Source: Actinomycetota bacterium (GTDB taxonomy: Bacteria > Actinomycetota > Acidimicrobiia > Acidimicrobiales > Poriferisodalaceae). From it: DNA of 64,000 bases. Where the stretch lies: NCBI GenBank assembly GCA_014238065.1, contig JABABU010000025.1:62001-126000 (forward strand), given 5' to 3'. Under the pieces are notes generated by a model. That model ran no database searches. It saw nothing but the letters and a program-made list of their open reading frames with translations, and was not told the DNA's origin. Of the stretch, positions 4,380 to 13,840 are shown one piece after another; the stretch's first letter is position 1, and each line of letters begins with the position of its first letter. A program made the translations under genes and the position numbers.

Positions 4380-4712
4380 CTACGACCAGAAGCCGAATGC
4401 GGTCAGAGCGGCGAGGTAGACCGCTACCGCTAGCACGAGTCCGCCGACGAACAGCGCTGTGAAGAGCCAGTTCTCGAAGCGGAGGTGCATGAAATAAGCG
4501 ACGACGACGGCGAACTTCACGATCATCAGAATAATGAGGAGCGGGACGGCGAAGTCACCGAAGTCCCAGAAGTACGTGAGCACCTCGATGCCGGTGACGA
4601 CGGCGAGGAAGGCCGCTATGTTGACCGCGTTCTTGAACGTCAGGCCATGCTCTTCGTGAGCATCAATGTCGTGATCATCATGCGTGGATTCTGCAACTGC
4701 AGCGGCGGTCAT
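4380..4712 (-). CDS. ctaF: Cytochrome c oxidase subunit IV (caa3 type, COX4_pro-like)
   Basis: A 110-aa membrane protein and the last gene of the oxidase operon. After a His/Asp-rich N-terminus it has three hydrophobic helices, including VAYFMHLRFENWLFTALFV, the segment typical of prokaryotic COX subunit IV (CyoD/CtaF/CoxD families). These small subunits support assembly and carry no cofactor. Start ATG 4712 is chosen because TAGGAG lies 8-13 bases before it; the frame is open further, to 4763. It overlaps the end of ctaE. The gene name is used in the caa3 sense. Confidence 0.85.
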   Translation of the reverse strand: MTAAAVAESTHDDHDIDAHEEHGLTFKNAVNIAAFLAVVTGIEVLTYFWDFGDFAVPLLIILMIVKFAVVVAYFMHLRFENWLFTALFVGGLVLAVAVYLAALTAFGFWS

Positions 4713-4723
4713 GAGTTCAACTC

Positions 4724-5368
4724 CTACGGGATCAGGTAGACGATCGCGAAGATGACGATCCACACGATGTCGACGAAGTGCCAGTACAGGCCGACGATTT
4801 CGACTGTCTCGGCGTTCTTCTGGGTCACGCGGCCACGAGCGCTGAGGATGTACAGCGACGCCAACATCACGATGCCAAGCGAAACGTGAACACCGTGGAA
4901 ACCGGTCAATGTGAAGAAGGCAGAGGCTGAGATGTTGGTGGTGTAGCCGAGGCCCTCTCGGTAGAAGACCGTGAACTCATACACCTGGCCGGCAATGAAG
5001 ATGCAACCGAACGTGGCCGTTGTTCCGAGCCACAGGCGGGTCTGGCGGTTGTCGCCTTTGGCGACGGCCTGCACCGCAAGCACCATGGTGAGTGAGCTCA
5101 TCAGCAACACGAACGAGCTGACAGACGTGAACGGAATATCGAACAGTTCGCTGGCCTTCGGGCCCACGTTCTCGAGGTCGTCCGGCTTGTTGCGCAGCAA
5201 CAGGTAGGTCGAGATGAGCGCGCCGAACAACAGGCACTCTGATCCGAGGAAAGCCCACATCGTGAGCTTGTCGTGTGTGAGACCGGTAGTGGTCGGAAGG
5301 TGCTCGTAGTCGTCCCACTCGGTTCGACCGTAAGCGAGTTCGTTCTCGGGAGCGGTGACATCAGACAT
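4724..5368 (-). CDS. ctaE: Cytochrome c oxidase subunit III
   Basis: A 214-aa seven-helix-type subunit III of the haem-copper oxidase. The conserved first-core helix KLTMWAFLGSECLLFGAL carries the family Glu, the FHGVHVSLG segment carries the HxxH pair, and the C-terminus ends in YWHFVDIVWI, all canonical. Start ATG 5368 overlaps the ctaD stop by 8 bp, with a GAGG Shine-Dalgarno just upstream; the frame is open to 5461 but that part lies within ctaD. The protein stabilises subunit I and its D-channel. It is a useful control for the degenerate subunit III-like protein at 9435-10022. Confidence 0.95.
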   Translation of the reverse strand: MSDVTAPENELAYGRTEWDDYEHLPTTTGLTHDKLTMWAFLGSECLLFGALISTYLLLRNKPDDLENVGPKASELFDIPFTSVSSFVLLMSSLTMVLAVQAVAKGDNRQTRLWLGTTATFGCIFIAGQVYEFTVFYREGLGYTTNISASAFFTLTGFHGVHVSLGIVMLASLYILSARGRVTQKNAETVEIVGLYWHFVDIVWIVIFAIVYLIP

Positions 5369-7379
5369 TGGCCGCCTCCTCTTCCTCGGTGTCGGTAGAC
5401 GCATCGCCCGCGTCGGTTCCGTCGCCGGAGTCCTCATGTCCCTCATGGTCGTGGCCGTCATCAGGGTCGGTTGGGGGCTCGAGGGTCCAACCGTATATGG
5501 CGCCGATGATCACGATCAGGCCGACAGCCGAGATCGCGAGGTTGTAGATCACACCGAGGGCGACGAGTGGGAAGCCAAATGCCAGCACAACCGGCCAATA
5601 CGACGGTGATGGCAGGTGCGGGTGCTGGTCGCCCTTCTGCGCGATGTCGTTGCCATCTGCGATCTTGACGACCTTGCCATCTTCGTCCTCTTGGTACTTC
5701 TTGTGCCAGAAATCGTCGAGTTCGGTGACAACCGGGACATAGTCGAAGTTGTGTTCCGGGGCAGGAGACGGAATGGCCCATTCGAGCGTGCGACCGTCCC
5801 ACGGGTCGGCTTCGGCTCGAGGGATCTCACCGCTCTTGTACTGCTTCGCTGAGCGGAAGATGTTGTAGGCGAACACCAACATGCCGATGAGGATGACGAA
5901 CGCGCCGATGGTGGCGACCATGTTCCAGAAGTCGAGGCCGAGGTTCTCGTCGTAGCGATACGTTCGCCGCGCTTGACCCTGCAACCCGAGGATGTGCATT
6001 GGCCCAAACGACATGTTGAAGCCAATGAGCACCAACCAGAAGTGCGTCTTGCCGAGCCCGGTGCCCAGGTGATGCCCGAATGCCTTGGGCCACCAGTAGT
6101 ACATGCCGGCGAACAGACCCATGAGAGCGCCGCCGAACAGCACGTAGTGGAAGTGGGCGACGATGAAGTAGGTGTCGGTCTGCTGTGTGTCGGCCGCAGC
6201 AACTGAGTGCATGACACCCGAGAGACCACCGATGGTGAACATCGACACGAGCGAGATCGAGAACATCATCGGGACGGTGAAACGGAGCTTTCCGCCCCAC
6301 ATCGTGGCGATCCAGTTGAGAATCTTCACGCCCGTGGGTACAGCGATGAACATCGTGGTCGCCGAGAATGCAGCCACAGAAACTGGTCCGAGGCCAGAGG
6401 CGAACATGTGGTGTGCCCACACGCCCCAGCCCATGAAACCGATGCCGATGCCCGAGAAGACGACGAACGAGTAGCCGAACAGGGGCTTGCGCGAGAACAC
6501 TGGAAGTGTTTCCGACACGATGCCGAAGCTGGGCAAAATGAGGATGTAGACCTCCGGGTGCCCAAAGATCCAGAAAAGGTGTTGCCACAGCAATGGGTCG
6601 GCGCCCTGGTCGACGTTGAAGAAATTGGCGTCGAACGACCGGTCGAAGGTGAGCAGGAACAGCGCCACTGTGATCACCGGAATCGCAAACAACAACAAGA
6701 ACTGTGTGACCAGCACCATCCAGGTGAAGATCGGCATGATCCGCAGATCCATGCCAGGTGCACGCATGTTGAGAATGGTGACGATCAGGTTGATGGCACC
6801 TACCAGCGAAGCGATGCCTGCGATCTGGAGGCCGAGTGCGTAGTAGTCGACACCGGAGCCTGAGCTGTAGGCCAGGCCCGAGTTGGGCGAGTAGCAGAAC
6901 CAACCACAATCGGCGCCGCCGCCGGTGAACCAGCTGAGGTTCAAGAAGATGCCGGCGAACACGAAGATCCACAGACCAAGCGCATTCAGACGCGGGAACG
7001 CGACGTCGCGTGCACCGATCTGCAACGGAACCATGTAGTTGGCGAACGCAGCAGCAAGCGGCATGATCACGAGGAACACCATCGTCGTGCCGTGCATGGT
7101 GAACGCCTGGTTGTAGGCAGCTGCCGAAAGGATCTCGCCATTCGGCGATGCCAACTGCGAACGGACGAGTAGTGCTTCTACGCCGCCCCAGAAGAACCAG
7201 AACATCGCGACAACGCCGTACATGATGCCGATTTTCTTGTGATCGACAGTGAAGATCCAGCTACGCCACCCGGTGGTCGACTTCGGTCGTGCGAACACGC
7301 CGAGATCGCGCGGGACGGGAGCTGACGGCTCGCCGGATTCGAGTTCGAGGAGCTGTGGCTCTTCCTCGATGATTGCCAT
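5361..7379 (-). CDS. ctaD: Cytochrome c oxidase subunit I, catalytic
   Basis: The catalytic subunit of an A-type haem-copper oxidase, 672 aa. All functional residues are present: haem a ligands H96 and H411, haem a3 ligand H409, CuB ligands H274, H323 and H324, cross-linked Y278, E276 of the D-channel, D125 at its entrance, and K352 of the K-channel. After the 12-helix core there is a C-terminal extension with an extra hydrophobic hairpin (residues ~590-640) and an acidic, His-containing tail, as in caa3-type and actinobacterial enzymes. ATG 7379 has AGGAGAAC upstream. It lies between coxB and ctaE in one operon. Confidence 0.97.
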   Translation of the reverse strand: MAIIEEEPQLLELESGEPSAPVPRDLGVFARPKSTTGWRSWIFTVDHKKIGIMYGVVAMFWFFWGGVEALLVRSQLASPNGEILSAAAYNQAFTMHGTTMVFLVIMPLAAAFANYMVPLQIGARDVAFPRLNALGLWIFVFAGIFLNLSWFTGGGADCGWFCYSPNSGLAYSSGSGVDYYALGLQIAGIASLVGAINLIVTILNMRAPGMDLRIMPIFTWMVLVTQFLLLFAIPVITVALFLLTFDRSFDANFFNVDQGADPLLWQHLFWIFGHPEVYILILPSFGIVSETLPVFSRKPLFGYSFVVFSGIGIGFMGWGVWAHHMFASGLGPVSVAAFSATTMFIAVPTGVKILNWIATMWGGKLRFTVPMMFSISLVSMFTIGGLSGVMHSVAAADTQQTDTYFIVAHFHYVLFGGALMGLFAGMYYWWPKAFGHHLGTGLGKTHFWLVLIGFNMSFGPMHILGLQGQARRTYRYDENLGLDFWNMVATIGAFVILIGMLVFAYNIFRSAKQYKSGEIPRAEADPWDGRTLEWAIPSPAPEHNFDYVPVVTELDDFWHKKYQEDEDGKVVKIADGNDIAQKGDQHPHLPSPSYWPVVLAFGFPLVALGVIYNLAISAVGLIVIIGAIYGWTLEPPTDPDDGHDHEGHEDSGDGTDAGDASTDTEEEEAANV

Positions 7380-7444: not shown

Positions 7445-8653
7445 TCAGCTCGAGGTGGGTGTTCTGTCGCCGAGAGTCGAGAGATAGGCGACGAGGTCTT
7501 GGACATCTTCGTCGTTGAGCGAGTCGACGAACGAGAGCATGCCCTGTTGGTTGTCAGGGTCGAGCGGCTTTTGCGAAGGAGCATCGCGAATCCACGCCGT
7601 GAGGTCGGCTTCGTTCAGCGATCCGTCTTCGTTGTACAAATCGAAGATGGCGCCGGCAAACGACGTCCGACTCATGAGGTGCGTCAGATTCGGTGCAACC
7701 CCTGCGAGCAGTGGAACCGGGTTCTCCGCGGCTGCCTCGAACACGCCGTTCACGATGTGGCAGCTGGCGCAATGAAGCTGAAACAGCTCGTAGCCTTCGC
7801 GAACGTCTTCTTCTTCGGAACCTGGCAGGAAGCTCTGGCCTGGGACAGTCGCCGCGACCTGCTGTGAAGCCACCCAGGCGTTCCAGTCGCCGTCGCTCAA
7901 TGCGACAGCGCGGATGCGCATGTCGGCATGCGACAGTCCGCAGTACTCGGTGCAGACACCCCAGTACTCCCCTGGCTCATCCGCCTGGATTCGCCACTCG
8001 TGGACACGGCCAGGAACGGCGTCCTTTTTGCCGTTGAGCTCGGGCACCCAGAACGAATGGATCACGTCATTGGAGGTGATCTCGAGGTTGATGTCCTGAC
8101 CAGCGGGGAAAACGATGTCGTTGGCGGTGACGATCTCGTAGTGGCCATCGCCATCGAGGTCATAGGAATACTGCCACCACCACTGCTGGCCCTCGACTCG
8201 AATTTCGATCGCACCTTCTGGCTGGTCGACGAGATCGAAGATGGTCGGGATCGACACGACAGCGAGCACGGCGAGCAGAACTGCCGGTGCAATCGTCCAG
8301 CCGACTTCCGCCTTCGTGTGGCCATGAACCTGCTTCGGGAGCGACCCGTCGTCATGCTTGCGTTCCCTGAACTTGAAGATCAGGAAGACGACAGCTGCTC
8401 CCACGAGGAGGCCGATGATCGCCGCGAGCCATCCGGAGAACTTCGTCAGGAAATGGATGTCCCTCGCGAGTTCACTCTTTGGTTGCAGGGTGTCGCTCTT
8501 TGCATCGGCGCAGGAAACGAGAAGCGCTCCAGCCAAGACGAGCAATGTCAGGCGGCCGGTGCGTCGCATCGAGTGCCGTGATCGAGTGTTCGAAGACGTC
8601 GACAATGCGCCGCTCTCCTGGTCGGGTGATGTCGAAACGGTCGAGTGGCGCAT
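7445..8653 (-). CDS. ctaC: Cytochrome c oxidase subunit II with fused cytochrome c domain (caa3 type)
   Basis: A membrane-anchored electron-entry subunit, 402 aa. A lipoprotein-like signal (LVLAGALLVSC, Cys at 48) is followed by two transmembrane helices (~70-95 and ~118-138) and a cupredoxin domain with the full CuA set H199, C234, E236, C238, H242, M245. A C-terminal cytochrome c domain has CASCH at 295-299. The caa3 architecture lets the enzyme take electrons from a cytochrome c domain of its own. ATG 8653 shares a base with the stop of the upstream gene (TGATG) and has GGAG before it. An internal ATG at 8569 would place the signal peptide at the very N-terminus and is a real alternative. 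Confidence 0.95.
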   Translation of the reverse strand: MRHSTVSTSPDQESGALSTSSNTRSRHSMRRTGRLTLLVLAGALLVSCADAKSDTLQPKSELARDIHFLTKFSGWLAAIIGLLVGAAVVFLIFKFRERKHDDGSLPKQVHGHTKAEVGWTIAPAVLLAVLAVVSIPTIFDLVDQPEGAIEIRVEGQQWWWQYSYDLDGDGHYEIVTANDIVFPAGQDINLEITSNDVIHSFWVPELNGKKDAVPGRVHEWRIQADEPGEYWGVCTEYCGLSHADMRIRAVALSDGDWNAWVASQQVAATVPGQSFLPGSEEEDVREGYELFQLHCASCHIVNGVFEAAAENPVPLLAGVAPNLTHLMSRTSFAGAIFDLYNEDGSLNEADLTAWIRDAPSQKPLDPDNQQGMLSFVDSLNDEDVQDLVAYLSTLGDRTPTSS

Positions 8654-9434: not shown

Positions 9435-10022
9435 CTACTTCACGACATAGACGACGTAGAAGGCGGCCGACCAGGCCACCGCCACGAAGTCCCATACGAG
9501 CACGGCAGATGCGAGAGGCGCCGTACCTTCCGGACCGAGGTCGCCACCGATGGCACGAAAGCCCATCAGCGCGAGATAGACGAGTGACAGTACCGCCATG
9601 GTGAGCACCACGCCGGTGATCGAGAAAGCGAGGTTCTGCCATTCGCCGTCGCCGAGCGCAATGCCCATGCGGTTGAGCGAGAAGATCAACATGTTGAGAA
9701 AGAGCACACCCATAAGAAGCGTGAGTCCGATGCCGGTGTAGGCGTGCCCGCGCTCCTCCTTGCGGCTCGCCCATACGGCCCAGTGGGCAACGAACGATGC
9801 GAGTACCACGGTGACGACGCACATCACCAACTGTGCGTTAGGGATGGTGATCTCGTCAGGTACCCAGTGACTTCCTGGAGCCTTCACCTGATGACGTCGG
9901 CTGATGTAGAAGCCGAGCATTCCGGCCATCATCGCAGAGCCGGCGGCAATGGCCATGCAGGTGGCGACCAGCTGAGTCCGCGGTCGCGCCGACTGCTGCG
10001 TCATGGTCAACGTTTCTGCCAT
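9435..10022 (-). CDS. Degenerate cytochrome c oxidase subunit III-like protein
   Basis: A 195-aa five-helix membrane protein related to haem-copper oxidase subunit III. The C-terminal VWDFVAVAWSAAFYVVYVV aligns with YWHFVDIVWIVIFAIVYLI of ctaE in the same operon, but the His becomes Asp and the Asp becomes Ala. The segment AAGSAMMAG aligns with LGSECLLFG, so the conserved Glu becomes Ala (residue 30). No HxxH pair is seen. The start codon overlaps the stop of the COX1-like gene (TGATG). It is most simply the partner of that COX1-like protein. Homology is moderately sure; the function is unknown. Confidence 0.75.
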   Translation of the reverse strand: MAETLTMTQQSARPRTQLVATCMAIAAGSAMMAGMLGFYISRRHQVKAPGSHWVPDEITIPNAQLVMCVVTVVLASFVAHWAVWASRKEERGHAYTGIGLTLLMGVLFLNMLIFSLNRMGIALGDGEWQNLAFSITGVVLTMAVLSLVYLALMGFRAIGGDLGPEGTAPLASAVLVWDFVAVAWSAAFYVVYVVK

Positions 10023-11707
10023 CAGACCGTCGCCTCCTCAATATCGGCCCCACGGGCATCGAGTGCTGGGGTTCCCGATGTGAGATCGGGAAGATCGGAC
10101 CTGCCGGCGGCCGGTGGCGAATCGAGCAGCCATTCGGCCGACTGTGCTTCCCACGGGTCGCCTTCGGCATCTCCACCTCTGCCCGCGACCACCGAAGCAA
10201 TCAGGTCGAGAAGGAACAGCACTGCCGCGAGGGCGATGGCGACCGTTCCTACGAGGGAGAGGACGTTCAGGCCGCTGCTGGCATCAGGGAGGAACCCGTA
10301 GATTCCGCCGAGTTGAGGATCGATGGCCCCATCGACCCGTGGCAGTTCGGCTTGGCCGCTGACAACAGCCGCTACCGATGTGCCAGCAGCTGCGAGGAGC
10401 GTTCCGAGGAACGCGAGCCCCACACAGAGACGGCCGACGACACCGTTCAACGAGCGTCCCCAGATCTTCGGTGCCCACCAACTGAGCGACCCGACCATTC
10501 CGACCACGCCGACGCCCATGACGAGAATCTGGAACTGGGCCGAGCTCCACGTCGTGTCGCGAAGCGCGGGAACAGGATCGGTGGACCACCAGTCGAGCGA
10601 CTCGGCCCAGTCGAGAAACACGCCGGCTGCGCCCTGAGCGGCACCCAGCAGCACGAGGACCATCGTCGCGACGCCGGCGAGCACCGGCGCTGACAGCGAG
10701 GGAAGGGACTTCGAGGAGCCGAGGGTGCCGAGGCTCATGGCCGCAACCATCAGGACACCCAGAAGCGCTCCGAGGAACATCCCGAGATAGACGATGCCCG
10801 GCCAGCCGTTGGTGACGTCTGCACCTTCAGCGAGGTTCAACTGCGCCCACGCACCAAGGCCGAACACTGCGACGGCGCCGAGGCCACCGGTGACGACCAT
10901 GGGAATCATGGCCTTGCGCTTGGAGGCGGACTGGAGAACTTCGGCCGCAACACCAAGAGCCGGTACCGCGTAGAGAAACAGCGTCGGCGCACGGTAGGCG
11001 AACTCGACGTGGTCCCAGATGCCGTGGTTGCCGCCGAGGAAGACACGCCCATAGCGGTGGTCGACGTACAGGAAGACCAGGTTGCCGAGCAGCACCGGAA
11101 GGGTCAACAAGAGACCGACACCGGAGACGACGCTGGCCCACGTGAACGCCGGGACTTCGTCGAGGTAGAGGTCAGGAGCCCTGACGGTGAGTGCTGTGGT
11201 GACCACGACGCTCGCCGCCACCAACAGTGCCGCCACCGAGAATCCGAGAGCGAGCAGGTGAAGGTCGACACCATCGGCGTCACCACCGAATGGTCCGCCG
11301 TTGCCGAGGTATGCACCGATCAGAATTCCGCTGGATATCAGCCATGTCCAGAACGAGGCGAGTGCAGCTCGTGGGAACGTCACGTTCAATGCGCCGACCT
11401 GCAACGGGACGACGTAGACAGCGATGCCGAGGAAGAGTGGGATCAGGAACAAGAACAACAGCGCGTCCCTGGCCAGCAGGAACGACTGCGTATAGGTGTT
11501 CGCATCGAAGATCACATAGGCATCGGCGTCGGTCAGATCGACACGTAGCAGCGTCTCGAGGACGATGCCGACGACACCGAACAACACGGCGCACGTGATG
11601 AACATACGGCCGATGCGCTTGTGGTCGGTCGTGCCAACGAGCCCGATGAGACTCGGGTCCTCGACAGGCGGTGGCGAGAGAGCTGATTCGTTTGAAGTTT
11701 CGGTCAT
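10022..11707 (-). CDS. Cytochrome c oxidase subunit I-like protein lacking all haem and copper ligands
   Basis: A 561-aa, about 12-helix protein clearly homologous to COX subunit I: TTDHKRIGRMF at 27-36 matches TVDHKKIGIMY of ctaD, VVPLQVGALNVTFPR at 99-113 matches MVPLQIGARDVAFPR, and WWAPKIWG at 410-417 matches the subunit I segment WWPKAFG. Every catalytic residue is changed: haem a His to A79 and Q393, haem a3 His to Q391, CuB His to A240, Q289 and L290, cross-link Tyr to F244, D-channel Asp/Glu to N108 and T242, and no K-channel Lys. The frame is intact with normal codon use, so this is not a decaying pseudogene. It is the first gene of the oxidase operon. The Shine-Dalgarno is weak (GTGAG). 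Confidence 0.88.
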   Translation of the reverse strand: MTETSNESALSPPPVEDPSLIGLVGTTDHKRIGRMFITCAVLFGVVGIVLETLLRVDLTDADAYVIFDANTYTQSFLLARDALLFLFLIPLFLGIAVYVVPLQVGALNVTFPRAALASFWTWLISSGILIGAYLGNGGPFGGDADGVDLHLLALGFSVAALLVAASVVVTTALTVRAPDLYLDEVPAFTWASVVSGVGLLLTLPVLLGNLVFLYVDHRYGRVFLGGNHGIWDHVEFAYRAPTLFLYAVPALGVAAEVLQSASKRKAMIPMVVTGGLGAVAVFGLGAWAQLNLAEGADVTNGWPGIVYLGMFLGALLGVLMVAAMSLGTLGSSKSLPSLSAPVLAGVATMVLVLLGAAQGAAGVFLDWAESLDWWSTDPVPALRDTTWSSAQFQILVMGVGVVGMVGSLSWWAPKIWGRSLNGVVGRLCVGLAFLGTLLAAAGTSVAAVVSGQAELPRVDGAIDPQLGGIYGFLPDASSGLNVLSLVGTVAIALAAVLFLLDLIASVVAGRGGDAEGDPWEAQSAEWLLDSPPAAGRSDLPDLTSGTPALDARGADIEEATV

Positions 11708-11869: not shown

Positions 11870-12784
11870 TCAGAATCCCTCGACCACGAGGATGTCGACG
11901 GCCATGGCAACGAACACCACCGTGAGGTAGGTGATCGAGTAGCCGAAGACCTTCATGGCTCGTTTTGTGGATGGATCTTTCAACAGCATTGCGGTGTGGG
12001 TGAAAAAAACAAGACCGGCACCAGCTGCGGCAAGTCCGTAGATCCAGCCAAGATCTGCGATGAGCCCGAAGGCAGACCCGACCCCTGCGACGAGCGCCGT
12101 GTAGGCAATCATCTGGGTGGCTGTGTTTCGTACGCTTTCCACGACGGGCATCATCGGCACGTCGGCGAGGCGATAGTCCTCGGCGTATTTGATGGCCAGT
12201 GCCCAGAAGTGCGGCGGTGTCCACAGGAAGATGAGCGCGAAGAGAACCCACGGCTCGACGGCCAGTTGGTTCGTGACCGCTGACCAACCGATCAGTACCG
12301 GTGCAGCACCAGCAGCGCCGCCGATGACGATGTTCTGCCGCGATGTCCGCTTCAACCACAACGTGTAAACGAAGACATAGAAGAGCGTCGCGCTCACTGC
12401 AAGCGCCGCGGAAAGCAGGTTCACACCGACCCAGAGCAGCACGAACGCTGCGATCTCGAGCACGAATCCGAACACCAGGGCCTGTCGAGGCTGGACTGCG
12501 CCCGTGACGAGGGGCCGGTTTTTGGTGCGCTCCATCAGTGCGTCGATATCTCGATCGACGTACATGTTGAACGTGTTCGCGCCTCCAGCGGCGAGCGTTC
12601 CGCCGACCACGGTAAGCACCACGAGCCAACCGCTCGGCATTCCACGCTCAGCCACGATCATCGTCGGAACAGTTGTGACAAGCAGCAGTTCGATGATGCG
12701 CGGTTTCGTGAGCGCGACGAAGGCACCGATCTTTGTGGCAAAGGTGCGCGGCGGCGCGACCGTCACGGCGCTGACGTCAGTCAC
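11870..12784 (-). CDS. ctaB: Protohaem IX farnesyltransferase (haem O synthase)
   Basis: A UbiA-family membrane prenyltransferase, 304 aa, that adds a farnesyl group to haem B to give haem O, the precursor of haem A for the oxidase. The signature FNMYVDRDIDALMERTKNRPL-like region near residues 75-95 holds the N/DxxxD Mg-diphosphate site, preceded by LTKPRIIELLLVTTVPTM, as expected for CtaB/CyoE. About eight to nine hydrophobic helices follow. GTG start at 12784. It lies upstream of the oxidase operon in the same direction, with a 160-bp gap, and is divergent from ctaA. Confidence 0.95.
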   Translation of the reverse strand: MTDVSAVTVAPPRTFATKIGAFVALTKPRIIELLLVTTVPTMIVAERGMPSGWLVVLTVVGGTLAAGGANTFNMYVDRDIDALMERTKNRPLVTGAVQPRQALVFGFVLEIAAFVLLWVGVNLLSAALAVSATLFYVFVYTLWLKRTSRQNIVIGGAAGAAPVLIGWSAVTNQLAVEPWVLFALIFLWTPPHFWALAIKYAEDYRLADVPMMPVVESVRNTATQMIAYTALVAGVGSAFGLIADLGWIYGLAAAGAGLVFFTHTAMLLKDPSTKRAMKVFGYSITYLTVVFVAMAVDILVVEGF

Positions 12785-12916
12785 GGCAGGAACGATACGG
12801 CTTCTGGCGGGTCAACAACCAGCCCGAAGCGCAGTTTGTGAAAAAACGCACAAACCCTCAGCACCACGCCACCGCCTTCGTTGCTCATCGCATCGACTGC
12901 TCGTAGCGTCAACCGG

Positions 12917-13840
12917 GTGCAACGCACGCTGACACCTGCCACATATGTCCGGGTCACGAGGCTCGCACTGTGGTCGTTGGTCGTCATCGTCGTCACCGGC
13001 GCAGCAGTCCGACTCAGCGGCTCCGGTCTGGGTTGCTCAGACTGGCCGACCTGCACTTCTGAGCGATTCGTTCCCGAACGGGAGTTCCACGGTCTGGTCG
13101 AGTTCATCAATCGGATGTTCACCGGAGCGGTGTCGATGGCAGTCATCGCCGCTGTTCTTGCTTCGCAGCTGCGTGCAACGAAGCGGAAGGACCTGACCCG
13201 ACTCTCGTGGGGACTCGTGGTCGGCGTCGTCGCACAAATCGTGCTCGGCGGTGTCACCGTCTTGACCCACCTGCGCCCAGAGATCGTGATGGCCCACTTC
13301 CTGCTCTCGATGGTTCTCGTCGCCAACGCCGTGCTGTTGCAACACAGGGCCGGAACTCCCGACGAGGTCATCGCCGGTCGAGCATCGAAAAGGTCATCGC
13401 ACGACAGGACCTGGGCCATGAGACTCATGGTGCTCAGCTCGATCACCGTCGTGCTCGGCACGGTCGTCACCGCCGCCGGCCCACATGCCGGCGACGAGGA
13501 GGTCGAGCGGTTGTCGGTCGACCTCGGTTGGGTCGCGCGCATCCACGGCGCTTCCGTGTGGCTTCTGCTCGCCGCGATCGTGTGGTTCGCCTACATCCGG
13601 TCGCGATTCGACACAACGCCCCATCGACCAACGACTGTTCGACTCGAACAATTCGTACTCGTGGTGCTCGCGCAGGGCACCATCGGATACGTGCAGTACT
13701 TCAACGACACACCAGCGCTGCTCGTCGGACTCCACATCGTCGGAGCCTGCACCGTCTGGATCAGCGTCCTCCGTCTCGTGCTGTTCGCCGACGACGCAGC
13801 AGCCGACAACCGCGACCTACAAGAACTTCAGCGAACATGA
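12917..13840 (+). CDS. ctaA: Haem A synthase (COX15/CtaA family)
   Basis: A membrane monooxygenase that converts haem O to haem A. It shows the repeated four-helix-bundle design with His ligands: [15 protein letters not shown] near residue 55, [23 protein letters not shown] and [10 protein letters not shown]. The Cys pair GCSDWPTC is in the first periplasmic loop, as in Bacillus-type enzymes. I choose GTG 12917 ([16 protein letters not shown]), which puts the first helix at the usual distance; a TTG at 12881 is in frame. The stop overlaps clpS by 4 bp. Confidence 0.93.

Follow-up and report, generated by a model that had tools for sequence, protein, structure and literature searches.

The 64,000-nucleotide stretch of DNA analysed here (the window) comes from an Actinomycetota bacterium of the order Acidimicrobiales (GenBank assembly GCA_014238065.1, contig JABABU010000025.1, positions 62,001 to 126,000) and carries a minus-strand operon for a caa3-type cytochrome c oxidase. 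Besides ctaD, the gene for the live subunit I, this operon contains a second, ligand-less subunit I homologue, which we call COX1' (Table 1). The COX1' open reading frame (ORF) begins with ATG, and its stop overlaps the start of the next gene, COX3', by one base in TGATG, which confirms the translational link proposed in an earlier reading made from the letters alone (the sequence-only reading). The same overlap joins the CtaF'-like gene to ctaC, whose start is likely the ATG in this overlap, the mechanical ORF extending to 8908. In the operon, neither a Pfam scan of the window nor the gene order in relatives showed a further gene for subunit II, and the window's own assembly, which is 94.65% complete, has two PF00115 genes, COX1' and ctaD.

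Table 1 Genes of the oxidase locus, with positions counted from the first nucleotide of the window
Feature	Position	Strand	Basis
COX1', ligand-less subunit I paralogue, 561 amino acids (aa), 12 predicted transmembrane helices	10022..11707	-	PF00115, ctaD alignment, structure model
COX3', diverged subunit III paralogue, 195 aa	9435..10022	-	PF00510 (2.9e-6, 27.8 bits against a cut-off of 23.8); synteny
CtaF'-like membrane protein, 259 aa	8653..9432	-	PF12270 (8.1e-4, below cut-off); relatives; synteny
ctaC, subunit II with fused cytochrome c, live caa3 oxidase	7445..8653	-	PF00116 and PF00034
ctaD, live subunit I, six ligands all present	5361..7379	-	Pfam match, ligand alignment
ctaE, live subunit III, start may be internal	4724..5461	-	PF00510 (6.2e-18)
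COX4-type small subunit, live oxidase	4380..4763	-	PF03626 (2e-10)
ctaB, haem O synthase (UbiA family), first in the conserved gene order	11870..12784	-	PF01040 (1.3e-65)
ctaA, haem A synthase, divergent	12881..13840	+	PF02628 (1.8e-24)

COX1' is a full-length homologue of COX1 (PF00115, E value 1.7e-36, 126.5 bits, cut-off 34.8). It is 26% identical to the ctaD product over 561 columns (E 3e-41), and its score against the CtaD/CoxA equivalog TIGR02891, 188.8 bits, falls under the curated cut-off of 670.75. All six ligands of haem and CuB are replaced: H96, H274, H323, H324, H409 and H411 of ctaD correspond to A79, A240, Q289, L290, Q391 and Q393, and the cross-linked active-site tyrosine (Tyr278 in ctaD) is F244. 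The sequence-only reading had listed these replacements, and both the alignment to ctaD and a profile hidden Markov model (HMM) alignment return the same residues. Some MAFFT runs set a gap within the last ligand block and then read I at the last position; the block itself, SAQFQIL against VAHFHYV, is clear. Misaligned histidines were ruled out, as the HMM alignment puts no other His at the ligand positions. The proton-channel residues are also gone, as first read: the K-channel Lys is V321, the D-channel Asp is N108 and the Glu of the HPEVY motif is T242. A proton or ion pump was thus rejected; of the roles that the sequence-only reading had offered, a proton or ion module finds little support, and the best fit is a structural subunit of an enlarged oxidase. 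The whole protein has five His (29, 150, 217, 228, 233) and two Cys, and only H29 (95%, cytoplasmic side) and H217 (63%) lie in columns with at least 40% His across the family. COX1' is predicted to bind neither haem nor copper. Although it belongs to the COX1 sequence family, it lacks the ligands that define COX1, so oxidase subunit I should not, judging by its residues, serve as its functional name. Homology-based annotation names some ligand-less genes cytochrome c oxidase subunit 1, which is a warning.

The structure model of COX1' is full length and confident, and in this prediction COX1' keeps the 12-helix COX1 fold. Its best sequence match in the PDB is 6hwh (121.2 bits) and the best structural match of the model is 6adq, tied within 1 Z with an E. 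coli bo3 row. As the solved proteins closest to COX1' are the subunits I of III2-IV2 supercomplexes from actinobacteria, it might dock complex III to the caa3 oxidase, and a cytochrome b match with an adjoining Rieske-like ORF (by eye) does lie on the same contig. We nevertheless consider docking highly improbable, since in the tree described below the ligand-less family branches outside the order's sampled live types. The cytochrome b match (PF13631; L208, G000:C3) stands about 24 kb before the window; beside it, by eye, are the Rieske-like ORF, an ORF resembling a 4Fe-4S ferredoxin and a further cytochrome b-like part, and the group is perhaps a complex III of b6f-like layout. A separate locus (L209, G000:C30) holds an NrfD match, whose ORF starts with an iron-sulfur part; behind it, by eye, lies an ORF resembling a molybdopterin oxidoreductase.

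The ligand-less protein is common in the order. A protein search with COX1' found 883 relatives at E ≤ 0.001, and among the best 120 of these a single protein has one ligand His and the remainder none. Within the window's family-level group, a COX1' match is present in 38 of 39 genomes, none of the matches listed contains an in-frame stop, and in 33 of the 38 the ligand-poor gene and a ctaD-like match share one contig at a distance of about 4 kb. Elsewhere the gene is frame-shifted in one genome (G261), and the matches in four others (G023, G145, G377, G383) each run across a single TGA. For G023 an ORF of 530 aa was read (L017), so the TGA-spanning match may merely overrun the end of the gene. 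Named genomes were also scanned, using an alignment from a neighbouring family, which gave 131 loci. The best 80 of the 131 were read, and the gene order is the same in nearly all of them up to the contig limits; among the 80 are loci of Ilumatobacter nonamiensis YM16-303 and Desertimonas flava, both of which have the gene set (L059, L079). Ligand-poor genes occur in 37 family-level codes within the order, one of which (f73) has a frame-shifted gene only. Outside the order, all 19 matched regions that were read (16 from one scan, three from another) encode a six-His subunit I, and six further same-class regions also have all six His; 23 same-class genomes outside the order had a match, which was left unread in 16.

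The company of ctaD was followed from the other side. A search with the live ctaD gave a match at E ≤ 1e-200 in 73 of 128 genomes of the order, and COX1' was read in 63 of these, on the same contig in 59 and on another contig in four (G008, G019, G244, G262). In the remaining ten (G095, G236, G250, G257, G266, G278, G293, G299, G318, G332) the contig stops before COX1', and six of the ten still carry COX3' and/or CtaF'. This means that COX1' accompanies ctaD in every assessable genome (63/63). COX1' is kept even where several kilobases of other genes are inserted between CtaF' and ctaC, as in G254 (L234, L270) and G321 (L243, L271). Such company, together with the place of COX1' directly after ctaB and before ctaC-ctaD-ctaE and its correlation in rate with ctaB (0.25), would also suit a dedicated assembly platform, which with its two partners would hold CtaD, CtaC or haem intermediates in the course of biogenesis and be absent from the mature enzyme. 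We regard this as unlikely: a paralogous set that includes a subunit III homologue would exceed the needs of an assembly factor, and the oxidases of the 19 matched regions outside the order have no ligand-poor match there.

COX1' is under purifying selection, with a median ratio of nonsynonymous to synonymous substitutions (dN/dS) of 0.04-0.13 (pairs with dS outside 0.02-1.5 excluded). Its codon usage is normal, as the sequence-only reading had said, and resembles that of ctaD (r = 0.91; GC content at third positions 0.75 against 0.79). The loss of the ligands and the fast branches could point to a pseudogene or an assembly artefact; this was rejected, and its probability is close to nil, as dN/dS lies far below 1, the family-group matches are free of stops, and 299 unique ligand-poor sequences, a conserved gene order and a full-length confident model all speak against it. 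The claim that selection kept the fold and dropped catalysis thus holds for an order-wide family with a conserved operon place, the fold being a prediction. The sequence-only reading had also allowed for relatives that keep the His ligands, for a dN/dS near 1 and for other His in a profile alignment; none of these was found, and the conserved gene neighbourhood that it had left to be checked extends across the order.

Ligand states were read from 431 unique sequences on one profile, with duplicates and matches of fewer than 400 aligned residues dropped and L272-L278 not included. No ligand His is present in 261 sequences, one in 17, two in 12, three in nine, four in none and six in 131, and one sequence has five with the sixth unread. 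Among the 299 ligand-poor sequences, the CuB His are absent from 294 and reduced to one in five, while 18 keep the haem-a pair and 12 the a3 His. A single protein search contributed 120 of the 299, so the window's own family is over-sampled; the 179 locus-derived sequences include 142 with no ligand His. In a tree of 75 rows with the ligand columns removed, the 53 ligand-poor rows form one clade (100/100), which lies outside the sampled live types of the order. Parsimony requires one change for the CuB triad, six for the haem-a pair and five for the a3 His. The live rows were set as outgroup (L274 and L275 stand outside the tree), so that "loss" presupposes a live ancestor. Given such an ancestor, the loss of the CuB ligands happened once, and repeated losses of haem ligands came later. 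The deepest lineages (f66; f8, f11, f52, f54, f70, f85; f56) keep the haem-a pair, and the branching order of the first two deep splits has low support (85/22). Beyond the sequence-only reading, COX3' and the CtaF'-like gene form one set with COX1', and relatives show a stepwise loss, CuB first and haem ligands later.

The third protein of the set adds to this history. In ten loci of the deepest lineages (L165, L170, L230, L231, L236, L238, L240, L242, L241, L150), the CtaF'-like protein bears a C-terminal cupredoxin domain, nine matches being over the Pfam cut-off and that of L231 under it, at 21.2 bits. These CuB-less loci, which belong to the same operon and clade as COX1', keep both haem-a His in 10/10 and the a3 His in 8/10. 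Twenty other loci were tested, and only L274, whose COX1' has no ligand His, gave the domain. The domain is thus found in 10 of 14 tested loci with the haem-a pair (L231 below cut-off) and in 1 of 16 without it (L274); it is missing beside the pair in L247, L257, L266 and L275. Given these exceptions, cupredoxin and haem ligands are not strictly coupled. As the deepest lineages combine the domain with the pair, a plausible ancestor is a protein that lacked CuB but had haems and a copper electron carrier. Eight of the loci (L165, L170, L230, L231, L238, L240, L242, L150) retain the haem-a pair and the a3 His, lack CuB and adjoin a cupredoxin-bearing membrane protein; such loci possibly encode a haem/copper electron-transfer or gas-binding complex of their own. 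In Ilumatobacteraceae (L053, L054, L059, L079) the CtaF'-like protein is longer than the 259 aa of the window's protein, at about 379-416 aa, and carries a C-terminal extension.

For the analysis of constraint, 291 ligand-poor sequences were reduced to 87 at 70% identity and, with three basal rows removed, to 84, and 74 live sequences to 44 at 85%. The catalytic half of COX1' diverges fast. Ionisable residues exceed 30% in only two mid-membrane columns, Arg at the haem-a site (65/84 rows) and His488 (30/84; Thr in the window). The Arg occupies position 80, which adjoins the lost haem-a ligand of transmembrane helix 2 (TM2): this position is Gly or Ala in 132/132 live rows; it is Gly, Ala or Ser in 16/18 rows in which the haem-a pair is retained, and Arg in 257/281 rows without the pair. 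The haem-a void may be closed partly by side chains, notably this Arg next to the lost TM2 ligand. The fast divergence of the catalytic half could also mean a different membrane function on the old fold, such as lipid or quinone binding, signalling or transport, by a protein merely co-expressed with the oxidase. Indeed, one genome (G249) has COX1' and COX3' with no caa3 genes behind them, and in CydB, a haem-free homologue of CydA, ubiquinone-8 sits where CydA has haems, according to the accessible part of PMC6853902. We hold such a function to be quite unlikely, as conserved ionisable mid-membrane columns are few (Arg80 and His488), the proton-channel residues are gone and the operon place is strict.

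Four features together suggest a non-catalytic module: inheritance along with the live operon, translational coupling, retention of the predicted fold and loss of the active site. We therefore favour the reading that COX1' represents an order-wide family of subunit I paralogues stripped of their metal ligands, with a predicted 12-helix fold, predicted absence of haem and copper, and probably a structural, non-catalytic place in the caa3 oxidase encoded in the same operon. With COX3' and the CtaF'-like protein bound to it, COX1' would form an inert duplicate of an oxidase core. This module would serve as a scaffold packed against the live core of CtaC, CtaD, CtaE and COX4, similar to the packing of haem-free CydB on CydA in cytochrome bd. 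Several observations weigh against this structural reading. First, relaxation extends to cytoplasmic loops 6-7 (32%) and 8-9 (39%), which means that the retained constraint does not cover a whole cytoplasmic face. Second, rate covariation was computed from 68 loci with all eight genes (67 used, one near-duplicate dropped): COX3'-CtaF' reaches 0.40 and COX1'-CtaF' 0.33, but COX1'-COX3' (0.24) is no higher than COX1' with ctaB (0.25), ctaC (0.24) or ctaD (0.24), and COX1'-ctaE is -0.04. With COX1'-COX3' so close to the ctaB control, the covariation does not decide, and the trio is not separated from the control. Third, the Arg80 association amounts to four independent contrasts on supported branches, of which one or two agree and none disagree; it is not significant on the tree, and the swap is thus suggestive only. 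Fourth, the CtaF'-like model is poor (predicted local distance difference test score 70.2, predicted template-modelling score 0.48) and gave no fold match, the 114 Foldseek rows beginning at E 0.39 from a model too poor for searching. Fifth, G249 (L153) has ctaB, COX1', COX3' and a shortened CtaF'-like gene, followed by unrelated genes and no ctaC or ctaD, with other PF00115 matches on other contigs, one of them of the six-His type; the dependence of COX1' on caa3 is thus not absolute. Finally, the drift is heavy, the identity to ctaD being as low as given above, and could also mean a new function on the old fold. In G249, an ABC-transporter-like pair comes after the COX1'/COX3' group.

COX1' resembles family A heme-copper oxidase subunit I (CtaD/COX1; caa3 and actinobacterial aa3) in its PF00115 domain, its predicted 12-helix fold and its operon with ctaB and subunits II, III and IV, but lacks the six His, the cross-linked Tyr and the D- and K-channel residues. 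Like CydB, it is a ligand-less homologue of a catalytic subunit encoded beside it; unlike CydB, which is known in its complex, it is known from genes alone, and its stripping is graded across living relatives. The CydB fold is unrelated to the COX1 fold. FoxA of the Sulfolobales fox clusters is described in the available parts of PMC10654088 and PMC5461723 as a divergent subunit I homologue and putative oxidase subunit; like COX1' it belongs to an oxidase-like cluster, and these descriptions, as far as available, are silent on lost ligands. No description of a ligand-less subunit I was found in the literature searched, including the accessible parts of PMC10654088, PMC5461723, PMC6853902, PMC8239418 and PMC9145763; subscription literature is mostly uncovered, so this is no proof of absence. 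A cofactor-free paralogue subunit is of a known kind, and we have seen no precedent in the heme-copper superfamily.

The metals of subunit I are considered to fix this part of respiration. In the present clade, read in at least 36 family-level groups of one order, the protein is kept and its metal ligands are dropped, and living intermediates show the apparent order of loss. We tentatively propose, at somewhat less than an even chance, that complex IV of these bacteria pairs a working half with a metal-free half as a heterodimer: a duplicate oxidase of ancient origin would have lost CuB once, persisted as a protein with haem and cupredoxin, shed its haems on several occasions and become a pure protein scaffold of caa3. 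If so, the heme-copper superfamily would gain in COX1' its first cofactor-free subunit I, and each stage of the stripping would still be alive in related genomes. The system makes it possible to test where in the COX1 fold selection acts on structure alone, by what route an enzyme turns into a scaffold, and whether complex IV can be heterodimeric.
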